64,000 bases of DNA. It comes from Candidatus Nitrososphaera gargensis Ga9.2. Its GTDB lineage: Archaea > Thermoproteota > Nitrososphaeria > Nitrososphaerales > Nitrososphaeraceae. The stretch covers positions 744,001-808,000 of the forward strand of contig NC_018719.1 in assembly GCF_000303155.1 (NCBI RefSeq). The letters run 5' to 3'. Each line of letters opens with the position of its first letter. The stretch's first letter is position 1. Shown one piece after another: positions 37,786 through 53,289 of the stretch. A model generated the notes under the pieces. That model made no database searches and was not told where the DNA came from. It saw only the letters and a list, made by a program, of their open reading frames with translations. The position numbers and the translations under genes are program-made.

Positions 37786-38472
37786 ATGAACCATAAAGGC
37801 AAGTTCAGAAGGTCCCGTAGGGGAGTCATCGGCATCGAATCGGCCATAGTCCTGATCGCTTTTGTGATCGTGGCAGCGGCCTTATCGTTTGTCGTCCTCA
37901 ACATGGGATTCTCAACAACACAGAAAGCAAAGCAAACAATCGGGCAGGGCCTTGATACGTCTAGCAGCGTGCTAGAAGTAGGCGGTTCAGTTTCGGGCCA
38001 CCTCAACTCTACTGCAGGGGCACTTGACATTGTCACCATCCCGCTGAAGGTTGCCTCTGGCAGCAAGAGCGTGGATCTGCAAGAAAGTCTCACAGCGGTG
38101 AGGTACTTTACAAGGACCCTCAACTACGACAACATCTACAATGGAACACTGAGCTCGACAACATATGGTAGCGTTTCAGACGCACTGGCAGCAGCAAAAA
38201 CGGCAGGCATCTTGGATAAGAACCCACTTGCATCTTCCGGTGCAGCCAATCCAACTAAGACAGTAGCCATCATCTACTGGACTGTCAACGAAAACAACAA
38301 CGATGTGCTAGACAAGTCTGAATCAGCTACGCTGGCCATCGTCTTCCGCAACGCAGACATGCCAAAACAACTCGACAGAATCAACGCAGAAGTCATACCG
38401 AGCATAGGTGCGCCAATGACTGTCGCAAGAGACGTTCCAACACTGACAGATACGTACCAAGACCTGACTTAA
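37786..38472 (+). CDS. arlB: Archaellin
   Basis: 228 residues. Class III signal peptide MNHKGKFRRSRRG with cleavage expected after Gly13, then the hydrophobic assembly helix VIGIESAIVLIAFVIVAAAL. The rest is a beta-rich, Ser/Thr/Asn-rich filament domain with possible N-glycosylation sites (NGT, NST). It is processed by a prepilin peptidase, not found in this window, and polymerises into the archaellum filament. Only one archaellin gene is present. First gene of the arl operon, 20 bases before the next. Confidence 0.96.
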   Translation: MNHKGKFRRSRRGVIGIESAIVLIAFVIVAAALSFVVLNMGFSTTQKAKQTIGQGLDTSSSVLEVGGSVSGHLNSTAGALDIVTIPLKVASGSKSVDLQESLTAVRYFTRTLNYDNIYNGTLSSTTYGSVSDALAAAKTAGILDKNPLASSGAANPTKTVAIIYWTVNENNNDVLDKSESATLAIVFRNADMPKQLDRINAEVIPSIGAPMTVARDVPTLTDTYQDLT

Positions 38473-38492: not shown

Positions 38493-40067
38493 ATGAACCT
38501 CCACCTTCCTTTTTTTAATCTCGATTCCATGAAAACCCGCGCGATATTTGCAGGTGCAGGTGCAGCCTCATTCTACGGATGGCTTCAGTATACCTCGCCT
38601 GATGCTTTACTGGGCCTGCTTGATACAAACAGCATCATGGCAGACCCTCTTAATCCTATGATAATCATTCCTCCGCTGGCCGCAGCTGGAGTCCTCCTTC
38701 CAAAGTTCATAAAAATGCCTGGAAGAATCGGTTTGCCAAAATTCAAGCAGAATGGAGTAAGCAATAACCAGTATGTCGAAAGCGGGGCTACATTGCTTGA
38801 GTTCGGCAAGAATCAGGATATCAAGGGGCCTAATACAAACAGCATCCCTTTCCAGATGGTCAGCGCTAGTTCAACATCATCATCGTCGGCAGCCACTACT
38901 GCTACTGGCTCTCCAGGACAATCAAAAGATGCATCCCCACCATCACAACAACCGGCAGTTGCTGCAAACCAGACCGGCACAACTACTCCCGTCCAAGTTG
39001 ACGAATCAAAGTTGTCGGCCATTGTAGAAAGCAAGACGAGCAAGATGGTTGAAGAAGTTGAAACTATCAAGAAGGAAATGGGCTCGATAGTACAGGATGT
39101 GCAATCTCTAAAGACCGACATAAAAGAGCTCACCTCAACATTTGAATCATCGCTAGTAGAATTGAAGGCATTTCAGTCAGAAATGGTAAACCCGGTCAAC
39201 TTTATGAGGAAATACTTTGAGTTGCTCGACATAAAGAATGTCTCTGATCCTGTAAATGTAATGATGCCAATTGAGCAGCTGGTAAACAATATTGGTGGTG
39301 CTTCCGATACCAAGCATGGCGGTAATGCAGCTACTGCTGCCACAACAACAGAGCCGGGCGTTAGAACAAAAGGAAACAATATCAAAAATCAACAACAAGA
39401 TGGCGATGTAAAGATTATTGAAAGCCAAAACACAGGAAGTGATAAAACTACCAGTAGTAAAACAAGGGCGCAGACAGATGAGGCATTTTCGATCGAAGAG
39501 ATATACAACATACTAAGACAACACCGAGCTGAGGGATTTGAAGAAGATGATGATGGAGCAGAAGAGGACAATGACGATGAGCAATATAGCAATAGGAAAT
39601 ATCGAAGAACTCAGGCTCATCGATCCCATTTCTCTTCACTAGCGCGATCCAAGATCAAGAACAGAAATTTAATGAGTAAAAGATCTATGATTGGATCAGA
39701 AAATGAAGAGTTCCTAGGAAGTTCGCTTGAATCCAGTCTGACACCTGGCAGGATAATGTCGATTGTCTCCATTGTAGACGAAATACTGGCTAGCATGGGG
39801 CCAGATGGTATAGAGCTTGTTTTGGAACAGTACCGGGCGATTGGACTAAGGCCTGAGGAAGAACGATTGATCTATGGCGTAGTCAAAATGCTCAACGAAT
39901 CAAAATTATTGACAGATGACATAATCGCAATGCTGTATCGGTTTGGACAGGTTCTTGGCATTAACGATCAGGATGCCGAGCTCCAGTACATGAAGATTGT
40001 AGCTAACAAGCGCAACAAGAAGAAGCGCATAGCCCGTGGCATGATGCCTAGGGAGGATGAAGAATAG
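38493..40067 (+). CDS. Large archaellum accessory protein, ArlC/D/E- or ArlX-like
   Basis: 524 residues. N-terminal hydrophobic segments (AIFAGAGAASFYGWLQY; PMIIIPPLAAAGVLLPKF), a Ser/Thr/Gln linker, coiled coil (MVEEVETIKKEMGSIVQDVQ SLK), a FMRKYFELLDIKN region, low-complexity acidic and basic stretches, and a C-terminal helical domain (IMSIVSIVDEILASMGPDGI, GLRPEEERLIYGVVKML, FGQVLGI). Its place between arlB and arlG is that of arlC/D/E in Euryarchaeota and arlX in Crenarchaeota. A membrane part plus coil recalls the ArlX ring; the C-terminal domain recalls ArlD/E. Probably the stator or switch scaffold; assignment by position and layout. Confidence 0.6.
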   Translation: MNLHLPFFNLDSMKTRAIFAGAGAASFYGWLQYTSPDALLGLLDTNSIMADPLNPMIIIPPLAAAGVLLPKFIKMPGRIGLPKFKQNGVSNNQYVESGATLLEFGKNQDIKGPNTNSIPFQMVSASSTSSSSAATTATGSPGQSKDASPPSQQPAVAANQTGTTTPVQVDESKLSAIVESKTSKMVEEVETIKKEMGSIVQDVQSLKTDIKELTSTFESSLVELKAFQSEMVNPVNFMRKYFELLDIKNVSDPVNVMMPIEQLVNNIGGASDTKHGGNAATAATTTEPGVRTKGNNIKNQQQDGDVKIIESQNTGSDKTTSSKTRAQTDEAFSIEEIYNILRQHRAEGFEEDDDGAEEDNDDEQYSNRKYRRTQAHRSHFSSLARSKIKNRNLMSKRSMIGSENEEFLGSSLESSLTPGRIMSIVSIVDEILASMGPDGIELVLEQYRAIGLRPEEERLIYGVVKMLNESKLLTDDIIAMLYRFGQVLGINDQDAELQYMKIVANKRNKKKRIARGMMPREDEE

Positions 40068-40551
40068 TCAGATGGGAAGCCTCATAATAAGCGAGGGGAT
40101 AATCTTGATAGCATCGATCATAATTGCAGCTGGATTTTCAGTCACAGTCCTAAACCAGATGGGAGTATTCAAGTCGACGCTTGCAACAGCTGGAGCAGCT
40201 GAAAAAGAGATCGCATTAACCAGAATAAAGATCCTTTATGCCACTAACTCATCAAGCACCCAAATAGATGTGTGGGTAAAGAACATTGGAACAAATCAGA
40301 TCGTATCATTGGACAAGATGGATGTCTATCTTGGCAAACTAAATAATGTTCAAGGAATTCCGTACAATGCGGCGTCACCTCCAAAGTGGACATATACCAA
40401 TTCAAATGGTAATGTTTGGCAGCAAAAGGATAGCATCAAAATAACTGTAACACTCGATTATTCTCTGGAAACCAATGTCAATTACTTAGTAAGGATCGCC
40501 ACTCCAAATGGAGTGAGTGACGATTACATCTTTTCCTTGACTACAACATAG
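40057..40551 (+). CDS. arlG: Archaellum stator protein ArlG
   Basis: 164 residues. N-terminal pilin-like helix GSLIISEGIILIASIIIAAG followed by a beta-sandwich-like domain (IDVWVKNIGTNQIVSLDKMD, ITVTLDYSLETNVNYLVRI). ArlG and ArlF form a complex outside the membrane that binds the S-layer and anchors the motor. The ATG overlaps the end of the upstream gene by 11 bases. The first Met may be followed by a better one at codon 6 (MGSLIIS). Confidence 0.85.
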   Translation: MKNSQMGSLIISEGIILIASIIIAAGFSVTVLNQMGVFKSTLATAGAAEKEIALTRIKILYATNSSSTQIDVWVKNIGTNQIVSLDKMDVYLGKLNNVQGIPYNAASPPKWTYTNSNGNVWQQKDSIKITVTLDYSLETNVNYLVRIATPNGVSDDYIFSLTTT

Positions 40552-40568: not shown

Positions 40569-41108
40569 ATGGGTTTTAGCGCTGCAATCAGTGGTGGAAT
40601 AATGATGACAATGATCATAGTTGTATTAATTATGGCAATACCTGCTGTCATAAATGCGAACATTACTACTAGTCGGGCGTATTCTGAACGCGCACAGCTT
40701 GATAGCGAGTACATAAAGACCTCAATTCAGATCACAGATCTCCAAGCTTTGCCAGACACTGATATTGTAAATGTAACACTCAGCAATGATGGATCAAGTA
40801 AATTATGGAATTACCAAAAGTTCAATGTACTTGTAACATATGATTACATACCAGATCCCTTAGCATCTCCTCAACGAATAACTGAAAACTTGGATTATGC
40901 TGGAATTACGCAGATCGTATCTGCTGCTGGATCATGGTCCATAACAGGATTTATCGATGATAATATTGATCCGCAGATTCTGAACCCTGAAGAATCTCTT
41001 ACAATAAGAGGTAGACTGAATCATGATATTGCTATATCCGCTGAACTTGTTGCAGTAACTATATCGACAGACAATGGCGTAATAGTCAGCAAAGCGGTGA
41101 TACTCTGA
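40569..41108 (+). CDS. arlF: Archaellum stator protein ArlF
   Basis: 179 residues. MGFSAAISGGIMMTMIIVVL is the typical ArlF start (MGFS, then a hydrophobic helix), followed by an extracytoplasmic beta-rich domain (DIVNVTLSNDGSSKLWNYQK FNVLVTYDY, LTIRGRLNHDI). It works with ArlG as stator contacting the S-layer. The stop overlaps the ATG of arlH (CTGATGG), consistent with coupled translation. Confidence 0.87.
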   Translation: MGFSAAISGGIMMTMIIVVLIMAIPAVINANITTSRAYSERAQLDSEYIKTSIQITDLQALPDTDIVNVTLSNDGSSKLWNYQKFNVLVTYDYIPDPLASPQRITENLDYAGITQIVSAAGSWSITGFIDDNIDPQILNPEESLTIRGRLNHDIAISAELVAVTISTDNGVIVSKAVIL

Positions 41109-41815
41109 TGGCCATTATAACAGTGTCAACTGGCAATGAAGAGGTTGACAGACAGATAGGAGGAGGTCTGCCGCTTCCGTCGCTCATGCTGATCGAAGGA
41201 GATCATGGGACAGGGAAGAGCTCTATGGCTGCCCAGTTCATGAACGGTCTGCTAAAATCACAAAGAAAAGTGTTGTTCATCACCACGGAGAGCGCCACCA
41301 AAGACTACATTGAAAAGATGAAAATGATAACCTATGATTTCAGAAGGGATTTTCTGAAGAACATGCTGTCAATACTTCCTGTGAATATCGATGGAGTTTC
41401 CTGGTCAGCAGCCAGGTCAAAGCAGCTTTTGCCGGTAGTAGGCAAGTACATCAGCATCAATTCAAAAAAGTTTGATGCGGTCGTAATTGATTCTCTATCC
41501 GCCCTTACCATGCATGCGGATACTAGCACAACGCTTGATTTCTTTACAAAATGCAAGAACTTTGTATCAAAAGGCATGACTGTCATCATCACTATTCATC
41601 CAAAGGCAGTGCCCGAGGAGGTGGCAATGAGAGTAAGATCAACCTGTGACGGATACATGAAGATAACTCCCGCTACGATCGCGGGAAAAAGCGTCAAGGT
41701 TATGGAAATTGTCAAACTGATCGGCTCGTCTTCGCAAGTGAGCTCGCAATTCAGCTTTGACGTTGACACATCCTTTGGGATAAAGATAGTGCCGTTATCG
41801 ATGGCAAACGCATAA
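41108..41815 (+). CDS. arlH: Archaellum ATP-binding regulator ArlH
   Basis: 235 residues, RecA/KaiC-like. Walker A EGDHGTGKSSMAAQF, Walker B FDAVVIDSLSALT, with the motor-partner region MRVRSTCDGYMKITPATIAG downstream. ArlH binds ATP and associates with the ArlI ATPase at the motor base. The 91 bases before arlJ are the largest gap in the operon and hold only a doubtful 37-residue frame. Confidence 0.94.
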   Translation: MAIITVSTGNEEVDRQIGGGLPLPSLMLIEGDHGTGKSSMAAQFMNGLLKSQRKVLFITTESATKDYIEKMKMITYDFRRDFLKNMLSILPVNIDGVSWSAARSKQLLPVVGKYISINSKKFDAVVIDSLSALTMHADTSTTLDFFTKCKNFVSKGMTVIITIHPKAVPEEVAMRVRSTCDGYMKITPATIAGKSVKVMEIVKLIGSSSQVSSQFSFDVDTSFGIKIVPLSMANA

Positions 41816-41906: not shown

Positions 41907-43487
41907 ATGATAAAGTATATGGAGGCTTTGCAATTGCTAGGACTTAGGAAAACTACCACCGCTGTAACTGAGGATCCCAGTCAGCCGGGGGTCAAGACAA
42001 AAGGATCTTTTGTCCCAAAGCGCGTAGACGAGACTATAGTATACTTTTCGCTTCTCCTATTTGGCATATCTACAGGTCAGATCCAGCCTTCAGACTTGAT
42101 AAAGACATCAGGCAACACCAAGCAGTATGGGTACTATTCGCAAATCTTTGCCAAGATCCATCTGCTTGGTGTCAAGTGGCAGTATGGGCTTGCCAAGGCG
42201 TGCGAACTAGTAGCTGCAGAGATAAAGGCAGAAGAGTTCAAGCTACTTCTGATGAAGCTTGCGCAGGTACTTAGACTAGGCGAAGACCTGAGTACATTCC
42301 TCAGTCAGGAATTGCAGGCTGTCATGCATGGATACATTACGACGTACGAGAGGGCCATGAGGTCGCTTGATATGCTGCTGGAAATGTACTCGACAATGAT
42401 GTCTACTTCGTCTTTTCTGGTGGCATCAATGGCGCTCTTGACAATGATCTCCGGCGGAGGAGACTCTTCACAGCTGGTAGTGATAGTTACTCTAACCATC
42501 CTTATGGGCCTTGCATCATTTGTATTCATGGCCTATTACCTCTTCCCAAAGGATCGCATCATGATAAAGGAAGGGCACTCGGATATGGTCAAGATAAAAA
42601 AGATGCTTATGATGGCTCTTGGCACTGCAGCCTCAATTGGAATCAGCCTATCATTTTTGAACATTCTGCCAATTCCACTGGTCATAGCAATTGCCGGTGT
42701 ACCGCTCATCCTTCCAGGTCTTCTTGCCCGCAAGCTTGATGCAAAGATCAGAAAGCTGGACGATTCCTATCCGTCGTTTGCCAGACACTTGGGGGACGTT
42801 TACTCGACCGTAGGTTCACTTGGCCAGTCACTCAAGTCCGTTCTCAGGAGCGACTTTGGCATCCTGAACACACATATCGAGTCCATGACCAACAGAGTCA
42901 TGAGCAGGATAAAGATAGAGGATGCATTTGACTTGTTTTCAAAGGATACCGGTAGTGTGCTAATCTCTGCAGGTAACGACGTAATGTCCAATGCCTTGGT
43001 AAAGGGAGCAAACATGCTTCAAGTAGGCTCAAGGCTTTCGGAGATCACTACCAAGTTCCTCGAGATAAGGAAGAAAAGGCTGCAGTCTGCCAAGGCGTTT
43101 GAATCCACCATCATAATAATGCATGTGCTGACACTGGCAGTCTTTAGCCTCATAAACCGCCTACTGAATTTCCTTGCACAGTATTTTGCACTGCAGCAGT
43201 CAGTAGGCAGCGAAGGCGCTGCCATTCTGTCAATAGCGGCAGGCGACACAACACTCATGAGCATGATCTTATCTTTGCTCATAGTCGCACTGTCTGGGGT
43301 GAACGCAATGGCTCTCAAGGTATCACAGGGCGGTCTATTCCACACGATTTGGTTCAACATGGGGGTACTCCTTGGAATAGGTGGCGTCGTAGTTTACGGT
43401 GTGGACATTTTCCTAGACAGCATGATAGGGGACATACTGGACATCACAGAATCGCTTGAAGCCAGCGCAGGCTTGGGAGATGCTTAG
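41907..43487 (+). CDS. arlJ: Archaellum membrane platform protein ArlJ
   Basis: 526 residues. Soluble N-terminal helical part (QIFAKIHLLGVKWQYGLAKA), T2SF-type domains and about seven to nine TM helices in groups (VASMALLTMISGGG, VIVTLTILMGLASFVFMAYY, ISLSFLNILPIPLVIAIAGV, a last set near the C-terminus). A positively charged loop between the groups would contact ArlI. ArlJ is the membrane core around which the filament is assembled and turned. The end overlaps the start of arlI. Confidence 0.93.
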   Translation: MIKYMEALQLLGLRKTTTAVTEDPSQPGVKTKGSFVPKRVDETIVYFSLLLFGISTGQIQPSDLIKTSGNTKQYGYYSQIFAKIHLLGVKWQYGLAKACELVAAEIKAEEFKLLLMKLAQVLRLGEDLSTFLSQELQAVMHGYITTYERAMRSLDMLLEMYSTMMSTSSFLVASMALLTMISGGGDSSQLVVIVTLTILMGLASFVFMAYYLFPKDRIMIKEGHSDMVKIKKMLMMALGTAASIGISLSFLNILPIPLVIAIAGVPLILPGLLARKLDAKIRKLDDSYPSFARHLGDVYSTVGSLGQSLKSVLRSDFGILNTHIESMTNRVMSRIKIEDAFDLFSKDTGSVLISAGNDVMSNALVKGANMLQVGSRLSEITTKFLEIRKKRLQSAKAFESTIIIMHVLTLAVFSLINRLLNFLAQYFALQQSVGSEGAAILSIAAGDTTLMSMILSLLIVALSGVNAMALKVSQGGLFHTIWFNMGVLLGIGGVVVYGVDIFLDSMIGDILDITESLEASAGLGDA

Positions 43488-45186
43488 AGATATGCAGAGC
43501 ACCAAGCAGGCAGCCGATCAGAACCAGCCACAATCTCAGATGGATCCCAAGCTTATGGAGCAGATGCAGAAGGTTCCATACCTTATGGAGTACGTGTCGG
43601 CCTTTATACAAAAGGGTAATCCTTCTCCCGCGTTCTATGAAAAGATCGACGGAAGTTTCAAGAGCCTCAAGATGCCCAATCTGATCTACCCGATCAGCGA
43701 GAACAATTTGATACATATCAACGCCTACGCATCTGGCGGGGACGGTTATTTTGAGTATGTGGTGATAGGTCCTCCAGAGCCGGATGCCCGCCTGCTGGGT
43801 GCAGTCGACAGGATGTTCGCAACATATGCAGGGTCTTGGAAACCTCCAGACCAATTGCAGGAGCGTTTCATGGCGGTGGGCAACTTTCTGGACAAGATAT
43901 GTGTCAAGTCGCCCACACCTGTGCAGTACGACAAGATAGACGCAAAGAAAACCAAGACGATCCCAGTGTATGAAAAAGAATACGAGTATCTGAAGTATCA
44001 TTTCCTGACCAAGAGAGTAGGTCTTGGAATCCTTGACCCCTTCCTCACTGACCCTCACCTTGAGGATATCTCTATCGTCGGTGCTGGTAACGTATACGTA
44101 GTCCACAAGATCTTTGGGCCTCTCAGGTGTACCGTATGGCTCACAATGGATGACATTGATGACATGGTCATAGGCATGTCTGAACAGTTTGGCAAGACTA
44201 TATCGCATGCCAGGCCGCTGGTTGATGCGACGCTGCCTGAAGGTTCCAGAATCAATATTGTCTTTGGCAAGGACGTAAGCAGGAGGGGAACGAACGCGAC
44301 CATCAGAAGGTTTGCAAGCGTGCCACTATCGATAACCCAGATCATTAACTCAAAGAGCATTGACGCGCGTGAAGCGGCCTATATGTGGATGATGGTCGGC
44401 GAGGGTATGAGTTGTTTCATCAACGGGGAAACCGCGTCTGGCAAGACAACTACCATGATGGGGATTACTCAATTCATTCCTCCGACATGGAAAATAGTCA
44501 GCATAGAGGACACGCCAGAAATAACGCTGCCACACAAGAACTGGATCAGCGAAGTTACAAGAGATACTGGAAGCCCATCGTCCAGCGTGGTAATGTTCGA
44601 CCTGCTCAAGGCAGCTCTCAGACAGAGGCCAAACTACATACTTGTAGGTGAAATCAGGGGCGCAGAGGCCAATATAGCATTTCAGGCCATGCAGACAGGG
44701 CATCCTGTCATGAGCACCTTCCACGCAGCACAGATGTCATCACTTATCCAGAGGTTGACAGGCGAGCCTATGAAGATACCCAAGCCGAATGTAGAAAACT
44801 TAAACATTGCTCTGTTTCAAGCTGCAGTGCAGGGCAAGGATGGCAAGCCGGTTAGGCGAGTCTTATCCATAAACGAAATAGTAGGGTATAACGGCGGCGC
44901 AGACTCGGTCATGTTCGTTCCAGTCTTTACATGGGACCCTGCTTCTGATACGGTGACGTACAGAGGAAAGGGAAGCAGCAACCTGTTCATCACAAAGATA
45001 CTTCTCAAGAGGGGTCTCTCAAGGAAAGATGAAGGCAGTCTTTACGATGAACTTGAGCTACGCACAAAGATCCTAGAGACCATGATAAAGAAAAAGATAT
45101 TCAACTATTATGACGTCTATGACCGTATTGTGCAGGCAAAGGAAATTGGACTTGAAAAGTTCAAGAAAGAGCTTGATATGCTCTAA
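43480..45186 (+). CDS. arlI: Archaellum motor ATPase ArlI
   Basis: 568 residues from ATG 43480, which lies over the arlJ stop (GATGCTTAG); TTG 43456 would add eight residues. Type II/IV secretion ATPase: N-terminal region binds the membrane platform, then Walker A INGETASGKTTTM, Asp box (IEDTPEITLPHKNWI), Walker B LVGEIRGAEA and His box GHPVMSTFHAA. Drives both export/assembly and rotation. Last gene of the arl operon; its TAA overlaps the stop codon of cheR on the opposite strand. Confidence 0.95.
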   Translation: MLRDMQSTKQAADQNQPQSQMDPKLMEQMQKVPYLMEYVSAFIQKGNPSPAFYEKIDGSFKSLKMPNLIYPISENNLIHINAYASGGDGYFEYVVIGPPEPDARLLGAVDRMFATYAGSWKPPDQLQERFMAVGNFLDKICVKSPTPVQYDKIDAKKTKTIPVYEKEYEYLKYHFLTKRVGLGILDPFLTDPHLEDISIVGAGNVYVVHKIFGPLRCTVWLTMDDIDDMVIGMSEQFGKTISHARPLVDATLPEGSRINIVFGKDVSRRGTNATIRRFASVPLSITQIINSKSIDAREAAYMWMMVGEGMSCFINGETASGKTTTMMGITQFIPPTWKIVSIEDTPEITLPHKNWISEVTRDTGSPSSSVVMFDLLKAALRQRPNYILVGEIRGAEANIAFQAMQTGHPVMSTFHAAQMSSLIQRLTGEPMKIPKPNVENLNIALFQAAVQGKDGKPVRRVLSINEIVGYNGGADSVMFVPVFTWDPASDTVTYRGKGSSNLFITKILLKRGLSRKDEGSLYDELELRTKILETMIKKKIFNYYDVYDRIVQAKEIGLEKFKKELDML

Positions 45187-45998
45187 CTCTTCTGGTAGAC
45201 CCTCTCTCTGGTATAAATGGTCTTGAAAAGGGAAGATGTCCTTCCAATCATTATCTCTGACTGGCCCATTATTAAATATCCCTTTGGCTTTAGCGCATCG
45301 TAGAATTTCTTGAGTAGTCTCTCCCTGCTTTCCTTGTCAAAGTATATCATTACGTTCCTACATAGGATCATATCTAGATCCGACGCAGGAGGAGCGACCT
45401 TAGCAAGATCGCCAACATTAAAGATGATCGCTTCTCTGATCTGAGGGCTGATTTGCCAAGACTTTTTCCCTGTGACTTGCTGAAAATACTTTGACTTTAT
45501 TTCATCCGATATGTTCTTTAGATTCCTTTCCTCGTATATCCCTGACCGTGCAAATCTGATGGAATTGGGGTTGATGTCTGTCGCAAAGACGGAAAGCCTG
45601 TGCGATCCGGGCATAGTTTGCAGCAACTCGCTGGCTACAAGAGCAACACTGTACGGTTCTTCCCCGGTTGCACAGCCTGCACACCATATCTTTGTTATTC
45701 TATTTGAATGAACCATTGAGGGTAGCAACGTTGTTCTCAACAGATGGAATAGCTGGATATCCCTGAAGAACTCTGTCACCGTAACGGAAAAAAGTGAAGT
45801 TAGAGTCGCGTGCTCGACAGGATCGTTTGATAGCAGCTTTGCATACTCTTGGTAGGTCCTTATCCCTTTTGCTCTCATTCGATGATCTATTCTTCTTATC
45901 AAAAACGATTTCCTGTACTTTTGCGCGTCTCCGCTGTCTGCCAGCCTGTTGAGGATGAGATCTAGATTTGGATCGGCAGATTTTTCTATACTTGACAT
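45183..45998 (-). CDS. cheR: Chemotaxis protein methyltransferase CheR
   Basis: 271 residues. N-terminal four-helix domain (YRKSFLIRRIDHRMRAKG, YQEYAKLLSNDPVE) followed by a Rossmann SAM domain with WCAGCATGEEPYSVAL, FATDINPNSIRFARSG and DLDMILCRNVMIYFD. It methylates Glu residues on the receptors encoded upstream in the same operon. ATG overlaps the cheD stop (TGATG). Last gene of the chemotaxis operon, converging with arlI and sharing its stop-codon bases. Confidence 0.96.
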   Translation of the reverse strand: MSSIEKSADPNLDLILNRLADSGDAQKYRKSFLIRRIDHRMRAKGIRTYQEYAKLLSNDPVEHATLTSLFSVTVTEFFRDIQLFHLLRTTLLPSMVHSNRITKIWCAGCATGEEPYSVALVASELLQTMPGSHRLSVFATDINPNSIRFARSGIYEERNLKNISDEIKSKYFQQVTGKKSWQISPQIREAIIFNVGDLAKVAPPASDLDMILCRNVMIYFDKESRERLLKKFYDALKPKGYLIMGQSEIMIGRTSSLFKTIYTRERVYQKS

Positions 45999-46513
45999 CA
46001 GAGGATCACTTCAGATGTCTTGTTCCTTACTGTAACTTGACCTGTGCTTACGTCAAGCTTAACCCATCTGCCCTGTGTCGATCCTATATCCTCTGCTAAC
46101 ACGGGTATGTTGTATTGTGTGAGAAGAGATTTGATACTCAAATAGTTACGTTCACCGATGTTGAACAAGTCTGCCGCGCTGTTTTCATTTGTGAACGTCT
46201 TGGCCCCTCCAATAAGCTTAGAGATCAATAGATCGACTCTGGCACCTTTTTGTTTCATTCCTTCCACTACTACCTTAAGAGCGTGGTCGGCATACTTTGC
46301 TTCATGGCCATCTGCTGGCATATATCTGCCTTCGCTGCTTGGTAGCATTATGTGAGCAAGGCCACCTACCTTTGCGGCCGGCTCATACATGCATAGCGCG
46401 ATGCAAGAGCCGACAAATGTGGTAAGCGCAGAATTTTGATGATTGCTGATCGAATATGATCCCATTTTAACATCAATTTCGGCTACTCTACGCCAACTGC
46501 TCGCTTCTTCCAA
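45998..46513 (-). CDS. cheD: Chemoreceptor glutamine deamidase CheD
   Basis: 171 residues. Catalytic Cys in FVGSCIALCMYEP, His in GGLAHIMLP and Thr in ISKLIGGAKTFTNE; the INxGERNY-like segment FNIGERNYLSIKSLL also fits. CheD deamidates receptor Gln to Glu and binds CheC, boosting its phosphatase activity. The two genes are adjacent here, two bases apart. Archaea and many Gram-positive bacteria share this CheC/CheD adaptation system. Confidence 0.95.
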   Translation of the reverse strand: MEEASSWRRVAEIDVKMGSYSISNHQNSALTTFVGSCIALCMYEPAAKVGGLAHIMLPSSEGRYMPADGHEAKYADHALKVVVEGMKQKGARVDLLISKLIGGAKTFTNENSAADLFNIGERNYLSIKSLLTQYNIPVLAEDIGSTQGRWVKLDVSTGQVTVRNKTSEVIL

Positions 46514-46515
46514 TG

Positions 46516-47151
46516 CTATTCGCTCTTCCTTTTCGGAGTGCCAGTCGACGCTGCCAGCTTCCTTGCGTCTGTAATGCCCATTATGATCAAGACCTTTATC
46601 CGCGTTCCCGTGATCTTGCCGACTAGCTCTGACTCGGCTATCACCAGAATATTGTCTGTGGCAGCAATGTCGCTTATTGGAAATTCAATGATGCCATGAA
46701 TTGTGTCTGTGGCAAAGCCGGGGACCGAGCACTTCATCTTGAATCCCGTATATTTGGCCATGTCATTTAGGAATGAACCGGCGAACAGGATGTTGCCCAC
46801 TTCAGAAATTGAAGATCTGCCTAGAATGTCCAGCTCCTTTAGGTCATTGTTGCCAAGTAGACGTCGGGCAAGCTGTCGTGCCTGCTCATGTGTTAGAAAC
46901 AGCATCATGCCAACTGTGACATCTCCGTCCGCTCTCAGATATACTGCGCACAACTCTTCGTTGAAGAGCTGCACCAACTGGTCAACGTACTGCGGTTTTA
47001 CTTCATTAATCCTGCCAAATGAATACGTATATTCTTCTCCTGTCATCATAGCCAATGATTTGGATGTTCCAGACGCAAGCATGGATATTGTTGTGCCCAA
47101 ATCTGTTATTTCTGCTTCAGATATTGATACGTGGTTATTCTTGACTATCAT
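46516..47151 (-). CDS. cheC: CheY-P phosphatase CheC
   Basis: 211 residues. One clear phosphatase motif SSISEVGNILFAGSFLNDMA (E-x2/3-N) and a second related half earlier around EEYTYSFGRINEVKPQYVDQ, where the E/N pair is less clear, so one active site is the safer reading. CheC removes phosphate from CheY-P and is stimulated by CheD. The ATG overlaps the cheA stop (ATGA), indicating coupled translation. Confidence 0.93.
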   Translation of the reverse strand: MIVKNNHVSISEAEITDLGTTISMLASGTSKSLAMMTGEEYTYSFGRINEVKPQYVDQLVQLFNEELCAVYLRADGDVTVGMMLFLTHEQARQLARRLLGNNDLKELDILGRSSISEVGNILFAGSFLNDMAKYTGFKMKCSVPGFATDTIHGIIEFPISDIAATDNILVIAESELVGKITGTRIKVLIIMGITDARKLAASTGTPKRKSE

Positions 47152-48827
47152 GTCTTCTTTTCCTCCAGCTGCGTTAGATCAAGTATCAGTGCCACTCTTC
47201 CATCTGAAAGGATGGTTGCGTCTGTTGGGACATTTGAAGAATTGTAACCGATTCTGTCAATATGCTTTAGCACGATATCTTGTTTACTCTCAAACGAGTC
47301 CACCACCAAACCTAAGGGTTTGCCACCTTTTTCGACTATTATGACCGTCATCTTGCAATGCGAGTCCTGTGCCGGCGTTTGCGGCACGTTGAGCACTTCT
47401 GCGCCATATACCAGCGGAACTACCTGTTCTCTGAACATAACGACTGGCTTGCCATGGATCCTCCTTAGCTCATCTTGGTCAATTTGAATGGTTGACAACA
47501 CGTTTGAAATCTGAATGACATATTTTTCATTTCCTATCTTTACCAGCAGGCCTCCGATGATTGCCAAGCTCAGAGGTATTGTCATAGTAAAGGTCGTTCC
47601 ATGGTTCTTTTCAGTTTTGATCCTTACCGTCCCCCCAACAGACTCGATCTTGTTAATTACAACATTGAGGCCTACTCCTCTTCCGGAAACGTCTGTGACT
47701 TTCTGCGCAGTTGAAAGACCGGGTGAACCTAGGAGATCAACAATGTCCTCTGTTGTCATAGCCTCGGCCTCCTGCCGGTTTATGATGTGTTTCTCAATGG
47801 CCTTTTCCTTCACTTTTTCAAGATCTATGCCCCTTCCGTCGTCAGACACCTCTATCAATACTTTGTCTCCAAGCCTTGATGCCTTTAGCTTGATTGTTCC
47901 ATGCCGCGGCTTGCCCATCTTTTCTCTCTCCTCTGGCAGTTCTATCCCATGGTCCACAGAATTTCTCAACATGTGCAAAAGCGGATCCCTGATAGCGTCG
48001 AGCACAGTGCGGTCGAGTTCTATGCCAGTCCCTTCCATTTCCAGCCTAACTTCCTTTCCTTGGCTATTCGAAAGGTCGCGGACCATTCTTGGAAAACGGT
48101 CAAAGATCTGCTCAATTGGGACTAGCCTAATCTTCATCGTATGGTTCTGGAGATTGTTGATCAGGCGATCAAGGTTTCTGAGGACCTGCCGCGGCTTGCC
48201 TGCCTGCTGAGAATCAGAGAGTACCTGTTCAAGCCTCATTTTGGCTATCATGATCTCGCCTACAAGGTCAACAAGAGAATCCAGATCGTCCATCTTCACC
48301 CTTATGGTCTGCGTCTTAGTATGGGATTGGTTGTTGCCTGTTTCCTCAGAAATCCCTGACTGCTCTGCGGCCGGTATAATCATTCCATTTGCTGCCGCAG
48401 CCGAAGCATTAGGCGAAGACAGATCATATCCTTGTTGCCCGCTGGCATTCTCTGATCCTGAAGTTACCTTTTGGAATTCTTGCATGAATTCTTCCATATT
48501 GATGATCTTGTTCTCATCGTTTACCATCTTGTCTAGCACATCGAACGACTTGAAGAGAAAGTCTGCAACACCTGTTGTCAGGCGAACTTCTCTCTTTCTT
48601 AATCTGTCAAAGAGCTCTTCTATGGTCTTGCATACTTGCCTGATTTGCTCATAGCCCATGGTGGCGGCCATGCCCTTTAATGTGTGAGCCGCTCGGAAGG
48701 CCGAATCTAGATGTTCTTTGCTATGCGGGTCTTGCTCAAGCTGGAGCATAGCATTGTTTAGACTCTGGATATGCTCTATGGCCTCCTGTACAAACATTTC
48801 GCGATACTTGGAAAAGTCATCGGACAT
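47148..48827 (-). CDS. cheA: Chemotaxis histidine kinase CheA
   Basis: 559 residues from ATG 48827 (MSDDFSKYREMF); an upstream start at 48872 is open but lies inside cheB. HPt domain with phospho-accepting His48 (RAAHTLKGMAATMG). A Ser/Gln/Ala linker follows where P2 would be, and it is short. Then come P3 dimerisation (LDSLVDLVGEIMIAKMRLEQ), P4 ATP-binding (NSVDHGIELPEE, DDGRGID, DVSGRGVGLNVV) and P5 CheW-like domain to the end. Phosphorylates CheY and CheB. Overlaps cheB by 11 bases. Confidence 0.96.
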   Translation of the reverse strand: MSDDFSKYREMFVQEAIEHIQSLNNAMLQLEQDPHSKEHLDSAFRAAHTLKGMAATMGYEQIRQVCKTIEELFDRLRKREVRLTTGVADFLFKSFDVLDKMVNDENKIINMEEFMQEFQKVTSGSENASGQQGYDLSSPNASAAAANGMIIPAAEQSGISEETGNNQSHTKTQTIRVKMDDLDSLVDLVGEIMIAKMRLEQVLSDSQQAGKPRQVLRNLDRLINNLQNHTMKIRLVPIEQIFDRFPRMVRDLSNSQGKEVRLEMEGTGIELDRTVLDAIRDPLLHMLRNSVDHGIELPEEREKMGKPRHGTIKLKASRLGDKVLIEVSDDGRGIDLEKVKEKAIEKHIINRQEAEAMTTEDIVDLLGSPGLSTAQKVTDVSGRGVGLNVVINKIESVGGTVRIKTEKNHGTTFTMTIPLSLAIIGGLLVKIGNEKYVIQISNVLSTIQIDQDELRRIHGKPVVMFREQVVPLVYGAEVLNVPQTPAQDSHCKMTVIIVEKGGKPLGLVVDSFESKQDIVLKHIDRIGYNSSNVPTDATILSDGRVALILDLTQLEEKKT

Positions 48828-49929
48828 ACTGCTGCATTCCTTCCCTCTTTCTTTCACTTTCCATCTCGCCAAGGATCCTGACTATCGCTTCTGCCATCCT
48901 GTTGGCAGGCACCATTTCGTCTACTGCTCCTAGGTCATAGGCGGCCTTGGGCATTCCAAAGACAACCGAAGTCGTGCTGTCTTGTGCGATTGTCCTGCCG
49001 CCTCTTCTTTTGATCATTTTCATGCCAAACGCGCCGTCCTGACCCATGCCAGACAAGAGCACACCAAGGGTGTTTGGTCCGAATACATCTGACGCACTCA
49101 CCATGGAAATGTTGACAGAAGGTCTGACTCCTTGTCTCTTGGGAGACTTGTCGAGATGTATGGTTCCTGATTGTGTTACTGTCGTGTGGTAATCTCCTGG
49201 TGCAACATATGCAGACCCTTGCTCAAGCAGATCTCCTTCCTTCGCTTCTCTAACATCGATTCTAGAAGCACTGCCGATGTGTCGCGCAAAGGCGCTGGTG
49301 AAGGAAGGAGGCATGTGCTGGACAATCAGTATGCTTGCAGGCAGATTTGCAGGAAGTTTCGAGAAAATATCTGTAACTACTCGAGGCCCGCCTGTCGAAG
49401 ATCCGATTACTATCATTTTTCTATTGCCTGAATGGTATAATGGCGCACAAGTCACGGGACTTTCCTTCTTCCTCTCTTTTAGAGGTACGAGCGCATCCGG
49501 GTAGGCACTTGATACAGCCTGGATCCTTGCGATCAGATCCTGACTTGTTTTTTTTCGATCGGTAATTCCGCTATCTGAGGGAAGTGAAATGAAATCCACT
49601 GCGCCGCTGTCAAGGCATTCAAAGATGATGTTGTTGTTCTTATCGTCGCCGCTATCACCATAGCTGCTTACCACGATAATTGGGATTGGCCTGTCTCTAG
49701 TCATCACCTTGTCGATAAACGTGACTCCGTCAAGGTTTGGCATTTCAAGATCAAGAAGAATCAGATCAGGATCTGCTTGGTCCAGCTTTCTTAACGCGTC
49801 CTCGCCGTCACGCGCGGTTTCACACAGGTCGAATCCATTGTGCGACCGGATGACATTGCAGAGATATTCTCTGATCATGCGGGAATCATTGACAACCATG
49901 ACCCTAGTTTTGCGGCTGTTTTGGATCAA
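48817..49929 (-). CDS. cheB: Chemoreceptor methylesterase CheB
   Basis: 370 residues. N-terminal receiver with phospho-acceptor Asp in LILLDLEMPNLDG and an early VVNDSR acidic site. The C-terminal esterase has catalytic Ser in MIVIGSSTGGPRVV, His in ILIVQHMPPSFTSAFA and Asp in GMGQDGAFGMKMIKRR. Removes methyl groups added by CheR, giving adaptation. Eight bases separate it from cheY. Confidence 0.96.
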   Translation of the reverse strand: MIQNSRKTRVMVVNDSRMIREYLCNVIRSHNGFDLCETARDGEDALRKLDQADPDLILLDLEMPNLDGVTFIDKVMTRDRPIPIIVVSSYGDSGDDKNNNIIFECLDSGAVDFISLPSDSGITDRKKTSQDLIARIQAVSSAYPDALVPLKERKKESPVTCAPLYHSGNRKMIVIGSSTGGPRVVTDIFSKLPANLPASILIVQHMPPSFTSAFARHIGSASRIDVREAKEGDLLEQGSAYVAPGDYHTTVTQSGTIHLDKSPKRQGVRPSVNISMVSASDVFGPNTLGVLLSGMGQDGAFGMKMIKRRGGRTIAQDSTTSVVFGMPKAAYDLGAVDEMVPANRMAEAIVRILGEMESERKREGMQQYVR

Positions 49930-49937
49930 ATGCAGTT

Positions 49938-50318
49938 CTACCTACTCCTTAATACTCTGTTCACGACCGTGGCCACTATACCACGGTCGAAGGGTTTGAC
50001 TACATAGTCCTTTGCACCCAGCTTGATCGCCTCTTGAACAACATGCTTTTGATCCACCGAGGTGACCATCACGACTTTGGCAGCAGGGTTTATCTGCAAA
50101 ATCATACGAAGCGCCTGAATTCCGTCTGTGCCAGGCATATTGATATCCATTGTAACAAGGTCTGGCCTATGCTGCTGGTACGCGCTTACAGCCGTAGCGC
50201 CGTCGCCAGCCTCCACGATATTCTGAAAGCCACTTGCCGTTAGGATGTCCTTGAGCACAACGCGCATAAAGGAGGCGTCGTCTACGACCAGTACCTTTGC
50301 AGATCCTCTATACGACAT
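49938..50318 (-). CDS. cheY: Chemotaxis response regulator CheY
   Basis: 126 residues. Asp13/Asp14 (VLVVDDASFMR), phospho-acceptor Asp58 (LVTMDINMPGTDG), Thr in VVMVTSVDQK and Lys in KDYVVKPFDRG. In archaea CheY-P acts on the archaellum motor through an adaptor (CheF in Euryarchaeota); no CheF-like gene is visible here, so the link to the large arl accessory protein or another adaptor is open. Confidence 0.96.
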   Translation of the reverse strand: MSYRGSAKVLVVDDASFMRVVLKDILTASGFQNIVEAGDGATAVSAYQQHRPDLVTMDINMPGTDGIQALRMILQINPAAKVVMVTSVDQKHVVQEAIKLGAKDYVVKPFDRGIVATVVNRVLRSR

Positions 50319-50320
50319 CT

Positions 50321-50899
50321 CTACTGGTTCGCCTCCACTATCTTCTTTTGACCAGAAAGCGTAGGTATGTCGTCCAAAGATTTGCCATTGCCGCTAGTCG
50401 GGACATGATCTTCCAGGGGGCCTTCATTTGCGAACAGAAGCCGCAGATCCAAAAGAACGTACAGGTCTCCCTTTAGCTTCGCTATTCCTTTGATATACGG
50501 TGCAGTTTCAGACAACACAGACGGCACAGGCTCGATATCGCCTGCCGAGATCTCTATCACCTGGTCGACTTCATCGACCAAAAGGCCAATTATGCTCTGC
50601 CCTATTTGAGCAACTATTATGCGGTCGCTTGTTCCAGAGGTGCCAGAAGCGGCATCGGAGCTAATTCCAAGCATCTTCCTCATGTCGATAATTGTTATTA
50701 TCTTACCCCTCAGGTTCATCACACCTTTCACATGAGTTGGTGCACCTGGAACTCGGGTGACATCTTCTAAGGTACCTATCTCTTGGACCTGCTCAACGCT
50801 GACTCCATAGTCAGTCTTTTTCTTTGTATTGGCGTCGCTAAGGCTAAACACGACTATCTTTGAATGCGGATTTATGCCTGCCTGATCTTTTGCCGACAA
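50321..50899 (-). CDS. cheW: Chemotaxis coupling protein CheW
   Basis: 192 residues. Typical two-barrel SH3-like domain: SVEQVQEIGTLEDVTRVPGA, then VKGVMNLRGKIITIIDMRKM, IIGLLVDEVDQVIEI and YIKGIAKLKGDLYVLLDLRL. A polar C-terminal tail of about 25 residues extends beyond the usual end. Bridges receptors and CheA. The stop and start of neighbours are within 2 to 5 bases. Confidence 0.95.
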   Translation of the reverse strand: MSAKDQAGINPHSKIVVFSLSDANTKKKTDYGVSVEQVQEIGTLEDVTRVPGAPTHVKGVMNLRGKIITIIDMRKMLGISSDAASGTSGTSDRIIVAQIGQSIIGLLVDEVDQVIEISAGDIEPVPSVLSETAPYIKGIAKLKGDLYVLLDLRLLFANEGPLEDHVPTSGNGKSLDDIPTLSGQKKIVEANQ

Positions 50900-50904
50900 G
50901 AGCC

Positions 50905-52092
50905 CTATTCCCCCCTATTTTCCGCCTCTGCGGACTGCTGTATTTTTTCTACGATATGGTTTGGCACTTTGAACCGTGAAAGCATTTCTTGCAGGGATCT
51001 GCCGAGGCTGTTAAGGTCATGTATGGCATTGCTTATTTCCTGCATGCCGGCGGCTTCTTCTTCTGTTGCGGCCGCGCACTCTTCAGTCGCTGCAGCATTT
51101 TCTTCAGCCACCGATGCAATGTCAGCGGCTCTCTTGCTAACCTCGCTGACAGCGCTGACTTGGCTCTGCAGGAGAATTGACAGCTCTTTTATGGTGCCGT
51201 CAACCATCTGGGCTCTTTTGGCAATATCTTCAAGAGCTTGCAGCGCCTTGTTGATTACGATCCTGCCTTCGGCGATCTCTTTCATCCCTACTTCTATGGT
51301 CTCAACCGTATGACGGGCGTCCTGCTGCACCTTGCTTATGATTGCCTCTATTTCTTCGGACGACTTGGCCGTCCCTTCAGCAAGATCCTTTACTTCGTTT
51401 GCCACTACTGCAAAGCCCTTGCCGGCTTCGCCTGCCCTGGCGGCCTCTATCGCTGCATTCAGTGCAAGCAAATTCGTTTTGCCAGCAATTTTCCTGATAA
51501 CATCAAGAACCGATGAAATCTTGTCACAGCGATCAGCCAGATTGCGTATATTCTCCGCAGAATCATGGGAGATATTGATTATTCTGGCAATTTTTTCTTC
51601 GGCGGCCGTTGCAGATCGGGAGCCTATCGATGAAGCCTTGCCTACGGATGCCGACATATCTGCAGCCTTTGCCATCTTGACGGCAAGCTTTTTCATGCCA
51701 CCGTCCAAGTCCTCGGTAAGTTTGTTAATAGCATCGATTTCCTCTGCCTGCTGCTGCGAGCCTTTTGCGATCTGCTGGATCGTAGTAGATATCTGCTGTA
51801 CCGAAGTGTTCACTTGGTCTGTGGCATTGGCCAGTTCAGTTGAAGTAGAAATGATGTTGTTTGAAGCAGCCGTTGCCTGTGACACTACGTTTCGGAAGCC
51901 GGCTACCGCGTTGCCGATATTTTTTTGCAGTTCCCCGATAATTCCATCACCATCCCTAGCAACATCTTTCATGAGGTTGCCTCCTGCAATTTCTTTTAGA
52001 AATTCATTGAGATCCGCTATTCTTTCCTCGTCGCTTGATGATTGTACTGTGGCTATCATTTTCTGGTGTCCCTCTTTTTCTCTTTTTGCCAA
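50905..52092 (-). CDS. Soluble methyl-accepting chemotaxis protein
   Basis: 395 residues with no membrane segment. N-terminal short region, a HAMP-like unit ([40 protein letters not shown]), then the long antiparallel coiled-coil signalling domain with the conserved tip [33 protein letters not shown]. Gln/Glu pairs in the flanking helices would be CheD/CheR/CheB targets. There is no recognisable sensor domain, so it may signal for another partner, for example the protein encoded just upstream. Confidence 0.93.
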
Positions 52093-52098
52093 AGTCGC

Positions 52099-53205
52099 TC
52101 ACCTTTGTTTGCTATCGCTTTTCTTTGGCAGTTTTTGTATTATCAGAGAGTGCCAGCCTGATGCATAGGTCTCGTAGCCTGGAGAAAACGCATGTGCTAT
52201 GCAGCACTCACCATTCTCATATGTAGTGATGACAAAGCCTTTCTTTTCTGCAAGGAGCGTCTCCATACCGGAGAACTGGATGCGGCTTTCGAGCATTTTC
52301 CTACGTGAGTCTGCGAGGATAAGCCCGTCGCTGTCAATAATGCAGATTCGTGAGTTGGCTCTTTCCTCCTCATTGAGCGGTGTGTCTTCGATTATCTTTT
52401 GTGCCAGTGCTTCCCAGTTAAAGATCACACCAAGAACTCCTATTACTCTGTCCTCTTCGGTCTGGTCATGCACTGAGCATGAGAATATTACAGTGAGCTG
52501 ATTGTTGACTAGTGGACACCGATGTACCGTCTGAAAGCCAAAGCCGTCCTTTGTCGCTTCAAGCGCCGACTTGAACCATGCGGTTTCGCTCTGGTTCTTG
52601 CCAAGGGAAGCATACTGATTTGGTCTGCCGTTTGCTATCACGTTGCCTGCTGAGTCGCATAATACGAGATCAAAGTAGACCGTATATGAATCAAGTATCA
52701 CGCCGAGCCTTTTTGATGCAAAGGCTATCGCATCCTTGTTGTTCTTGTCAGCAAGCGCGCTTGTAAGGCTGCTATCCTTTGCCCACCACCTAACATCACA
52801 TGAGCGCTCATACAGGCTTCTGTCTATGAGGTCGATATTGACAAGAGCCAGATCTGAAAGCCTGATGCCTCTGATGCTGGTAATCTGCTTCTTGATTATC
52901 TCGCCCATCTCTGCCATTGTACTCATGCTTTCGCGGCGAAGGTGCTCAGTTGTGTCTTCAATTTTCTTTGAGAGCTTGCTCATTTCTTCTGCCACTACGC
53001 TGAAGGTTTTGCCGACTTCGCCAGCCCTACTTGCTTCTATCAGAGCATTTATAGAAAGAACTTGGGTCTCGCCATTTATACGATCAATCTGATTGATTGC
53101 TGCTTCTGTCTTTTGAGCCAATATTTCGGTCAGTTCTGCGACTTTTTCTAGCGAAAATGAGGACTTGATCTCTTCTTGTTCGTTTGTATTCTGTTGCAGC
53201 GTCAT
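52099..53205 (-). CDS. Receptor with N-terminal signalling tip and C-terminal Cache-like domain
   Basis: 368 residues from ATG 53205; starts at 53262 (ATG) or 53289 (GTG) are also open. Residues about 20-110 form a short version of the MCP hairpin with the tip VLSINALIEASRAGEVGKTF SVVAEEMSKLSKKIEDT. The rest (about 150-350) resembles a dCache ligand domain (YFDLVLCDSAGNVIANGRPN, LTVIFSCSVHDQ, GVLGVIFNWEALAQKII, ICIIDSDGLILADSR). No membrane segment, so the Cache domain would be inside the cell. The order is the reverse of ordinary receptors. First gene of the che operon. Confidence 0.8.
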   Translation of the reverse strand: MTLQQNTNEQEEIKSSFSLEKVAELTEILAQKTEAAINQIDRINGETQVLSINALIEASRAGEVGKTFSVVAEEMSKLSKKIEDTTEHLRRESMSTMAEMGEIIKKQITSIRGIRLSDLALVNIDLIDRSLYERSCDVRWWAKDSSLTSALADKNNKDAIAFASKRLGVILDSYTVYFDLVLCDSAGNVIANGRPNQYASLGKNQSETAWFKSALEATKDGFGFQTVHRCPLVNNQLTVIFSCSVHDQTEEDRVIGVLGVIFNWEALAQKIIEDTPLNEEERANSRICIIDSDGLILADSRRKMLESRIQFSGMETLLAEKKGFVITTYENGECCIAHAFSPGYETYASGWHSLIIQKLPKKSDSKQR

Positions 53206-53289
53206 CGCTTTTGAACCTTCTTTGCAAGCTAATAAGGTGAAGTCTGTACATTGTCCTACCATTATAGTCTGCCTTGCTACTGGAACCAC

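Follow-up and report, generated by a model that had tools for sequence, protein, structure and literature searches.

The 524-aa protein encoded at 38493-40067 very likely corresponds, in Thaumarchaeota, to ArlX and ArlC/D/E, as a membrane-tethered scaffold of the archaellum motor that is needed independently of chemotaxis and may also dock a CheY adaptor. A 2022 review listed the thaumarchaeal counterpart as still 'yet to be identified' (PMC8978795); the protein is now named and characterised. The results support one scaffold family, consisting of ArlX, the 524-aa protein and ArlC-D/E, across the archaea, and they set motor scaffolding apart from chemotactic signalling.

Operon position of the 524-aa gene

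The window, which is the whole 64-kb stretch of DNA analysed, belongs to a genome of 2,833,868 bp in one contig. The open reading frame runs from ATG at 38493 to TAG at 40067. The gene order is arlB, the 524-aa ORF, arlG, arlF, arlH, arlJ and arlI, followed by a convergent chemotaxis cluster. The genes were assigned as follows.

37786..38472, + strand: arlB archaellin (PF01917, E=9e-23)
38493..40067, + strand: gene for the putative archaellum scaffold, ArlX / ArlC-D/E family, 524 aa (ORF, operon position and conservation)
40057..40551, + strand: arlG (NF052591 ArlG, E=3e-8, under its cut-off; PF01917 over cut-off)
40569..41108, + strand: arlF (NF052590 ArlF, E=7e-10, under its cut-off)
41108..41815, + strand: arlH (NF004723, E=1.7e-80; solved ArlH 4yds, E=3e-53)
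41907..43487, + strand: arlJ (T2SSF, E=3.6e-5, slightly under cut-off; synteny)
43456..45186, + strand: arlI (T2SSE, E=4.5e-31)
45183..53289, - strand: chemotaxis cluster with cheR, cheD, cheC, cheA, cheB, cheY, cheW, MCP and MCP-Cache, without cheF

An orthologue of the 524-aa protein was found at E<=0.01 in 16/101 relatives, the matches near E=0.001 being short or doubtful. The operon position was identical in 10/10 compared loci of chemotactic Nitrososphaeria. Across Thermoproteota families the corresponding position is kept by genes encoding the C-terminal domain. The neighbours in the family loci that were opened are archaellum genes, and every such locus with sufficient reach has the order arlB, family gene, arlG, arlF, arlH, with the exception of L156, one short contig.

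Domain architecture

An AlphaFold2 model of the 524-aa protein was built with 21 relatives. The full-length model was poor (pTM 0.29) except for the coil and the C-terminal domain. Together with the sequence comparisons it delimits five regions.

38529..38711, + strand: predicted membrane helical hairpin, aa 13-73 (AlphaFold2 helices 13-34 and 55-73; Kyte-Doolittle)
39003..39188, + strand: coiled-coil helix, aa 171-232 (AlphaFold2; sub-threshold Pfam matches to ArlX and FlaC_arch)
39189..39278, + strand: NPVNFMRKYF...DIKNVSDP motif, aa 233-262 (identity among relatives; segment HMM)
39279..39704, + strand: low-complexity variable linker, aa 263-404 (5-18% identity among relatives; pLDDT mostly <50)
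39744..40034, + strand: predicted five-helix ArlD/E-type C-terminal domain, aa 418-514 (AlphaFold2, HMM and profile-profile comparison)

The N-terminus is predicted to form a two-helix membrane hairpin. Within the first 80 residues, Kyte-Doolittle values above 1.5 were obtained for the second segment only in the 524-aa protein and for two segments in most relatives. The coiled coil was modelled as a single 62-residue helix, with pLDDT mostly 78-91 and about 68 at its end. It terminates in a conserved NP(L/V)NFMRKYF motif. Residues 233-262 are 50-67% identical in most of the Nitrososphaeria compared and 47% identical in the most distant; their core is common to ArlX (NPFN/SPFN) and resembles the NPF of ArlC. 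Conservation peaks at the coil end with its NP(L/V)NFMRKYF...SDP motif and at the C-terminal domain, while the linkers are 5-27% identical overall. The five C-terminal helices (about 418-514) have pLDDT of about 90 over most of their length.

Variation in this layout was seen among the relatives. In L051 (3326-4803) and L054 (5730-6960) the gene is broken between the membrane hairpin and the coil, which is due either to a frameshift error or to modules that are naturally encoded apart. Many Thermoproteota proteins at the ArlX position (L114, L137-L142, L145-L147) start with WxCxCxxC(R/K) in place of a clear membrane helix; this motif could be a metal site or an alternative membrane attachment.

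Relationship to crenarchaeal ArlX

The Pfam ArlX model (PF24151) matched the coil region with E=7.8e-4 and 19.4 bits, short of its cut-off of 28.7, and the best orthologue examined scored 27.1 bits. An HMM was then made of a 52-residue coil-NPF segment from Nitrososphaeria and other Thermoproteota, with the Sulfolobales left out. It identified five Sulfolobales ArlX proteins at E values from 6.9e-7 to 0.003, and the first unrelated ORF followed at E=0.12. These matches indicate that the coil-NPF segment is homologous to Sulfolobales ArlX and shares ancestry with it. The earlier note had proposed a membrane-anchored N-terminus joined to a coiled coil as in ArlX; the AlphaFold2 helices and the HMM match bear this out.

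The 524-aa protein resembles ArlX (FlaX, the crenarchaeal scaffold ring) in operon position, in its anchored N-terminus, in the coiled coil with an (N/S)PFN-type motif after it and in having a helical C-terminal domain. It differs in being twice as long (524 aa against open frames of 242-269 aa) and in possessing a long variable linker. Two membrane helices are predicted at its N-terminus, whereas the literature describes a single helix for Sulfolobales ArlX.

The C-terminal domain and euryarchaeal ArlD/E

A profile search detected the C-terminal domain in 69/398 Thermoproteota genomes. The Nitrososphaeria HMM of the domain matched proteins at the ArlX position in other Thermoproteota with E=4.5e-12, and the reverse search gave E values of about 1e-11. 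A profile was made from the domains of Nitrososphaeria and other Thermoproteota, with zero euryarchaeal sequences. Among the ORFs of the retrieved loci, and at E<=0.03, this profile found ArlD/E alone beyond its own family, starting at about 6e-6 when three short-type intermediate sequences were part of the profile. Without the three intermediates the best ArlD/E match was E=0.006, and the first 18 matches past the family were all ArlD/E.

Profile-profile comparison linked the domain of Nitrososphaeria to that of other Thermoproteota (98.9%) and the latter to euryarchaeal ArlD/E (83%, score 35). As controls for the second comparison, the maximum score of 100 column shuffles was 16.5, and the reversed profile scored 10.9. 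Direct comparison of the Nitrososphaeria profile with euryarchaeal ArlD/E was not significant (1%; best E=0.09), so the claim of homology rests on the Thermoproteota intermediates. Transitively, through those intermediates, the profiles argue that the C-terminal domain is homologous to ArlD/E.

The predicted helix patterns agree with this assignment. Both domains are predicted to have five helices, with lengths of 18-13-16-14-22 in the 524-aa protein and 18-13-12-14-22 in the ArlE model, and neither the profiles nor the structure predictions gave a sign of an unrelated fold. The C-terminal helical domain that the earlier note had placed at the position of ArlC/D/E is supported as one of ArlD/E type, on transitive homology and on the agreeing predicted helices. 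Unlike the 524-aa protein, ArlD/E has no membrane anchor (PMC8978795). Pfam Arch_fla_DE (PF04659) did not match the 524-aa protein, and a basal Nitrososphaeria homologue, in L016, reached 20.1 bits against a cut-off of 21. The structure libraries searched contained no solved structure for the fold comparison. Foldseek with both models found nothing in the PDB at E<=0.001; the PDB matches from single-sequence and profile searches were dismissed as chance helical matches.

A short unanchored form, found in some basal Nitrososphaeria, nearly reaches the ArlD/E cut-off and also carries the NPFN motif. Such a short ArlC-D/E-like gene is present in L013, L016 and L014 (genomes G071, G084 and G065, respectively), which are from Nitrososphaeria without detectable CheA. 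Extra genes lie 5' of it: L013 has a V4R-domain protein there and L016 an ORF that resembles it, and L014 has a ParA/MinD-type ATPase. They might give the motor a further control input.

ArlC and a probable single scaffold family

Similarity to ArlC was fainter. Pfam FlaC_arch (PF05377) matched the coil with E=0.02, and the NPF-segment HMM gave a non-significant E=4.7 for euryarchaeal ArlC. A link between the NPF segment and euryarchaeal ArlC was not upheld, the likeness being one of motif. The overall layout is that of ArlC and ArlCDE fusions, with a coiled coil that has an NPF motif at its end, a linker and a D/E domain in one chain. The same four elements occur in one chain in an Aenigmatarchaeota protein (L039).

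A single family appears to unite ArlX, ArlC-D/E and the 524-aa protein, and this is a better reading than a hybrid. The earlier note had described a combination of ArlX and ArlC/D/E features; it was right about the architecture, and the hybrid gives way to a single family. Makarova et al. 2016 report FlaC/D/E components found by sensitive searches in Crenarchaeota and Thaumarchaea (PMC4858521). The single-family idea is already reported there in outline, and the 524-aa gene is very probably the thaumarchaeal FlaC/D/E counterpart that they meant.

A probable membrane-tethered motor scaffold

ArlX forms rings, for which the coiled coil is required, and it binds ArlI and ArlH (PMC4307647, PMC8978795). 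By analogy with this coiled-coil-dependent ring and its partners, the most likely function of the 524-aa protein is that of a membrane-tethered ring around the motor. The scaffold would be tethered in the membrane, and its coiled coil together with its NPF-type motif would let it oligomerise around the motor of ArlJ, ArlI and ArlH. The long, flexible linker would present the five-helix ArlD/E-type domain, which probably contacts ArlH and/or ArlI. In a chemotactic cell or not, the scaffold would be required for building and supporting the motor. In chemotactic species it may double as a docking platform for a CheY adaptor, comparable to ArlCDE and CheF in Euryarchaeota. We infer the ring formation, the ArlH/ArlI contact and any signalling role of the scaffold; its architecture, operon position, common ancestry with ArlX and transitive homology to ArlD/E, and the lack of CheF, are shown by the analysis.

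No CheF detected in Nitrososphaeria

The earlier note had observed that the window contains no CheF. This is correct. CheF (PF04283) combines PH-like domains with a CheY-binding C-terminus, and an HMM search with it found none in the whole genome and no match in the 524-aa protein itself. CheF was above cut-off in 0/300 Nitrososphaeria genomes, while CheA was present in 49/300 sampled in the same way. A direct search of 19 genomes with CheA, of which 11 are Nitrososphaeria and 8 belong to other Thermoproteota, found no CheF either. The positive control, Methanocaldococcus, was detected at E=2.2e-37. Weak CheF matches in 8 genomes of the class, 12-15 bits against a cut-off of 25, were dismissed because they fell under the cut-off and, in those genomes for which the site of CheA was also determined, lay elsewhere. 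Since CheF was zero in the genome, the class and the CheA-positive sets and the control was detected, the CheF gap is judged to be real at HMM sensitivity; the genome-wide search used an HMM alone, and a strongly diverged CheF could escape it. None of the papers found in our search discusses the missing CheF of Nitrososphaeria. A similar gap was noted for the archaella of bacteria, in Chloroflexota (PMC12488501).

The missing CheF of ammonia-oxidizing archaea that steer thereby becomes a concrete question with few candidates. An adaptor without sequence kinship to CheF, encoded outside the cluster, might bridge CheY-P to the scaffold. We give this close to an even chance, if slightly less. The class-wide counts of CheA and CheF, the same absence in 8 CheA-positive Thermoproteota beyond the class sample and the comparable bacterial gap all point to it; on the other side, no candidate emerged and a strongly diverged CheF could evade the HMM.

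Does the scaffold receive CheY?

The earlier note saw in the 524-aa protein the best candidate link between CheY and the motor, a role that would fall to its C-terminal domain. That domain occupies the same position in archaellum operons of many Thermoproteota that lack CheA. In a test set of 58 archaellated genomes that have the domain and fall outside the main chemotactic set, a CheA match over cut-off was found in 8/58, leaving 50/58 without one. One CheA-less genome, G008, belongs to the same genus and is 99% complete; its operon is open from arlB to arlI, and no CheA was detectable in it. The C-terminal domain of G008 is 73% identical to that of the 524-aa protein, compared with 70% for CheA-positive G020, a comparison to be read with the reservation that a recent loss of CheA would entail little relaxation and that about 1% of the G008 genome may be missing. 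In Euryarchaeota, ArlC/D/E is bound by CheF and not by CheY itself (PMC9126983, PMC8978795). Because the domain occurs in CheA-less genomes, is unrelaxed in G008 and has in Euryarchaeota an intermediary in CheF, its role as CheY receiver is not supported.

Direct binding of CheY-P by the C-terminal domain, as a substitute for CheF, is accordingly improbable in our estimate. It would be consistent with the lack of CheF in this genome and its chemotactic relatives, and with CheF docking on ArlC/D/E in Euryarchaeota (PMC8978795, PMC9126983). The joint che/arl clusters count for it as well: a search there for an overlooked CheF-like gene, or for any conserved gene of unknown kind, came up empty, the recurring families being the standard che genes and the MCP-Cache protein. 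Against it stand the CheA-less genomes with an equally conserved domain, the euryarchaeal precedent and the poor conservation of the linkers, where a private CheY motif might have been seated. A broader form of the idea, in which CheA-bearing Thermoproteota including chemotactic Nitrososphaeria pass CheY-P to the archaellum without CheF and the anchored scaffold is the direct or near-direct receiver, is tentative and on the unlikely side. If true, archaellar switching would have a second solution, independent of the first.

On the preferred reading, the scaffold is at most a docking site for a CheY adaptor. The leading candidates for carrying the CheY signal are CheC and a further adaptor. CheC is encoded in the chemotaxis cluster here and in relatives, in several of them with a second copy. 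The CheC/FliM-type fold binds CheY-P, and the FliM middle domain belongs to the CheC family. In bacteria that domain binds CheY-P (PMC9126983), which counts for CheC as the adaptor between CheY-P and the scaffold. CheC is also present in CheF-bearing Euryarchaeota, where it is a phosphatase, and this counts against it. We consider a CheC adaptor doubtful.

Two CheC paralogues are present in several Nitrososphaeria clusters (e.g. L159, 3960-7604), with one in the 64-kb window. One CheC copy of genome G068 matched Pfam CheC with E=2.8e-11. At 52099-53289 (- strand) lies a chemoreceptor-like gene whose product has an inverted order, with the MCP signalling hairpin at aa 31-118 and then the Cache sensor at 171-370. 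Close relatives of this inverted MCP-Cache protein were found in 8/10 other chemotactic Nitrososphaeria loci.
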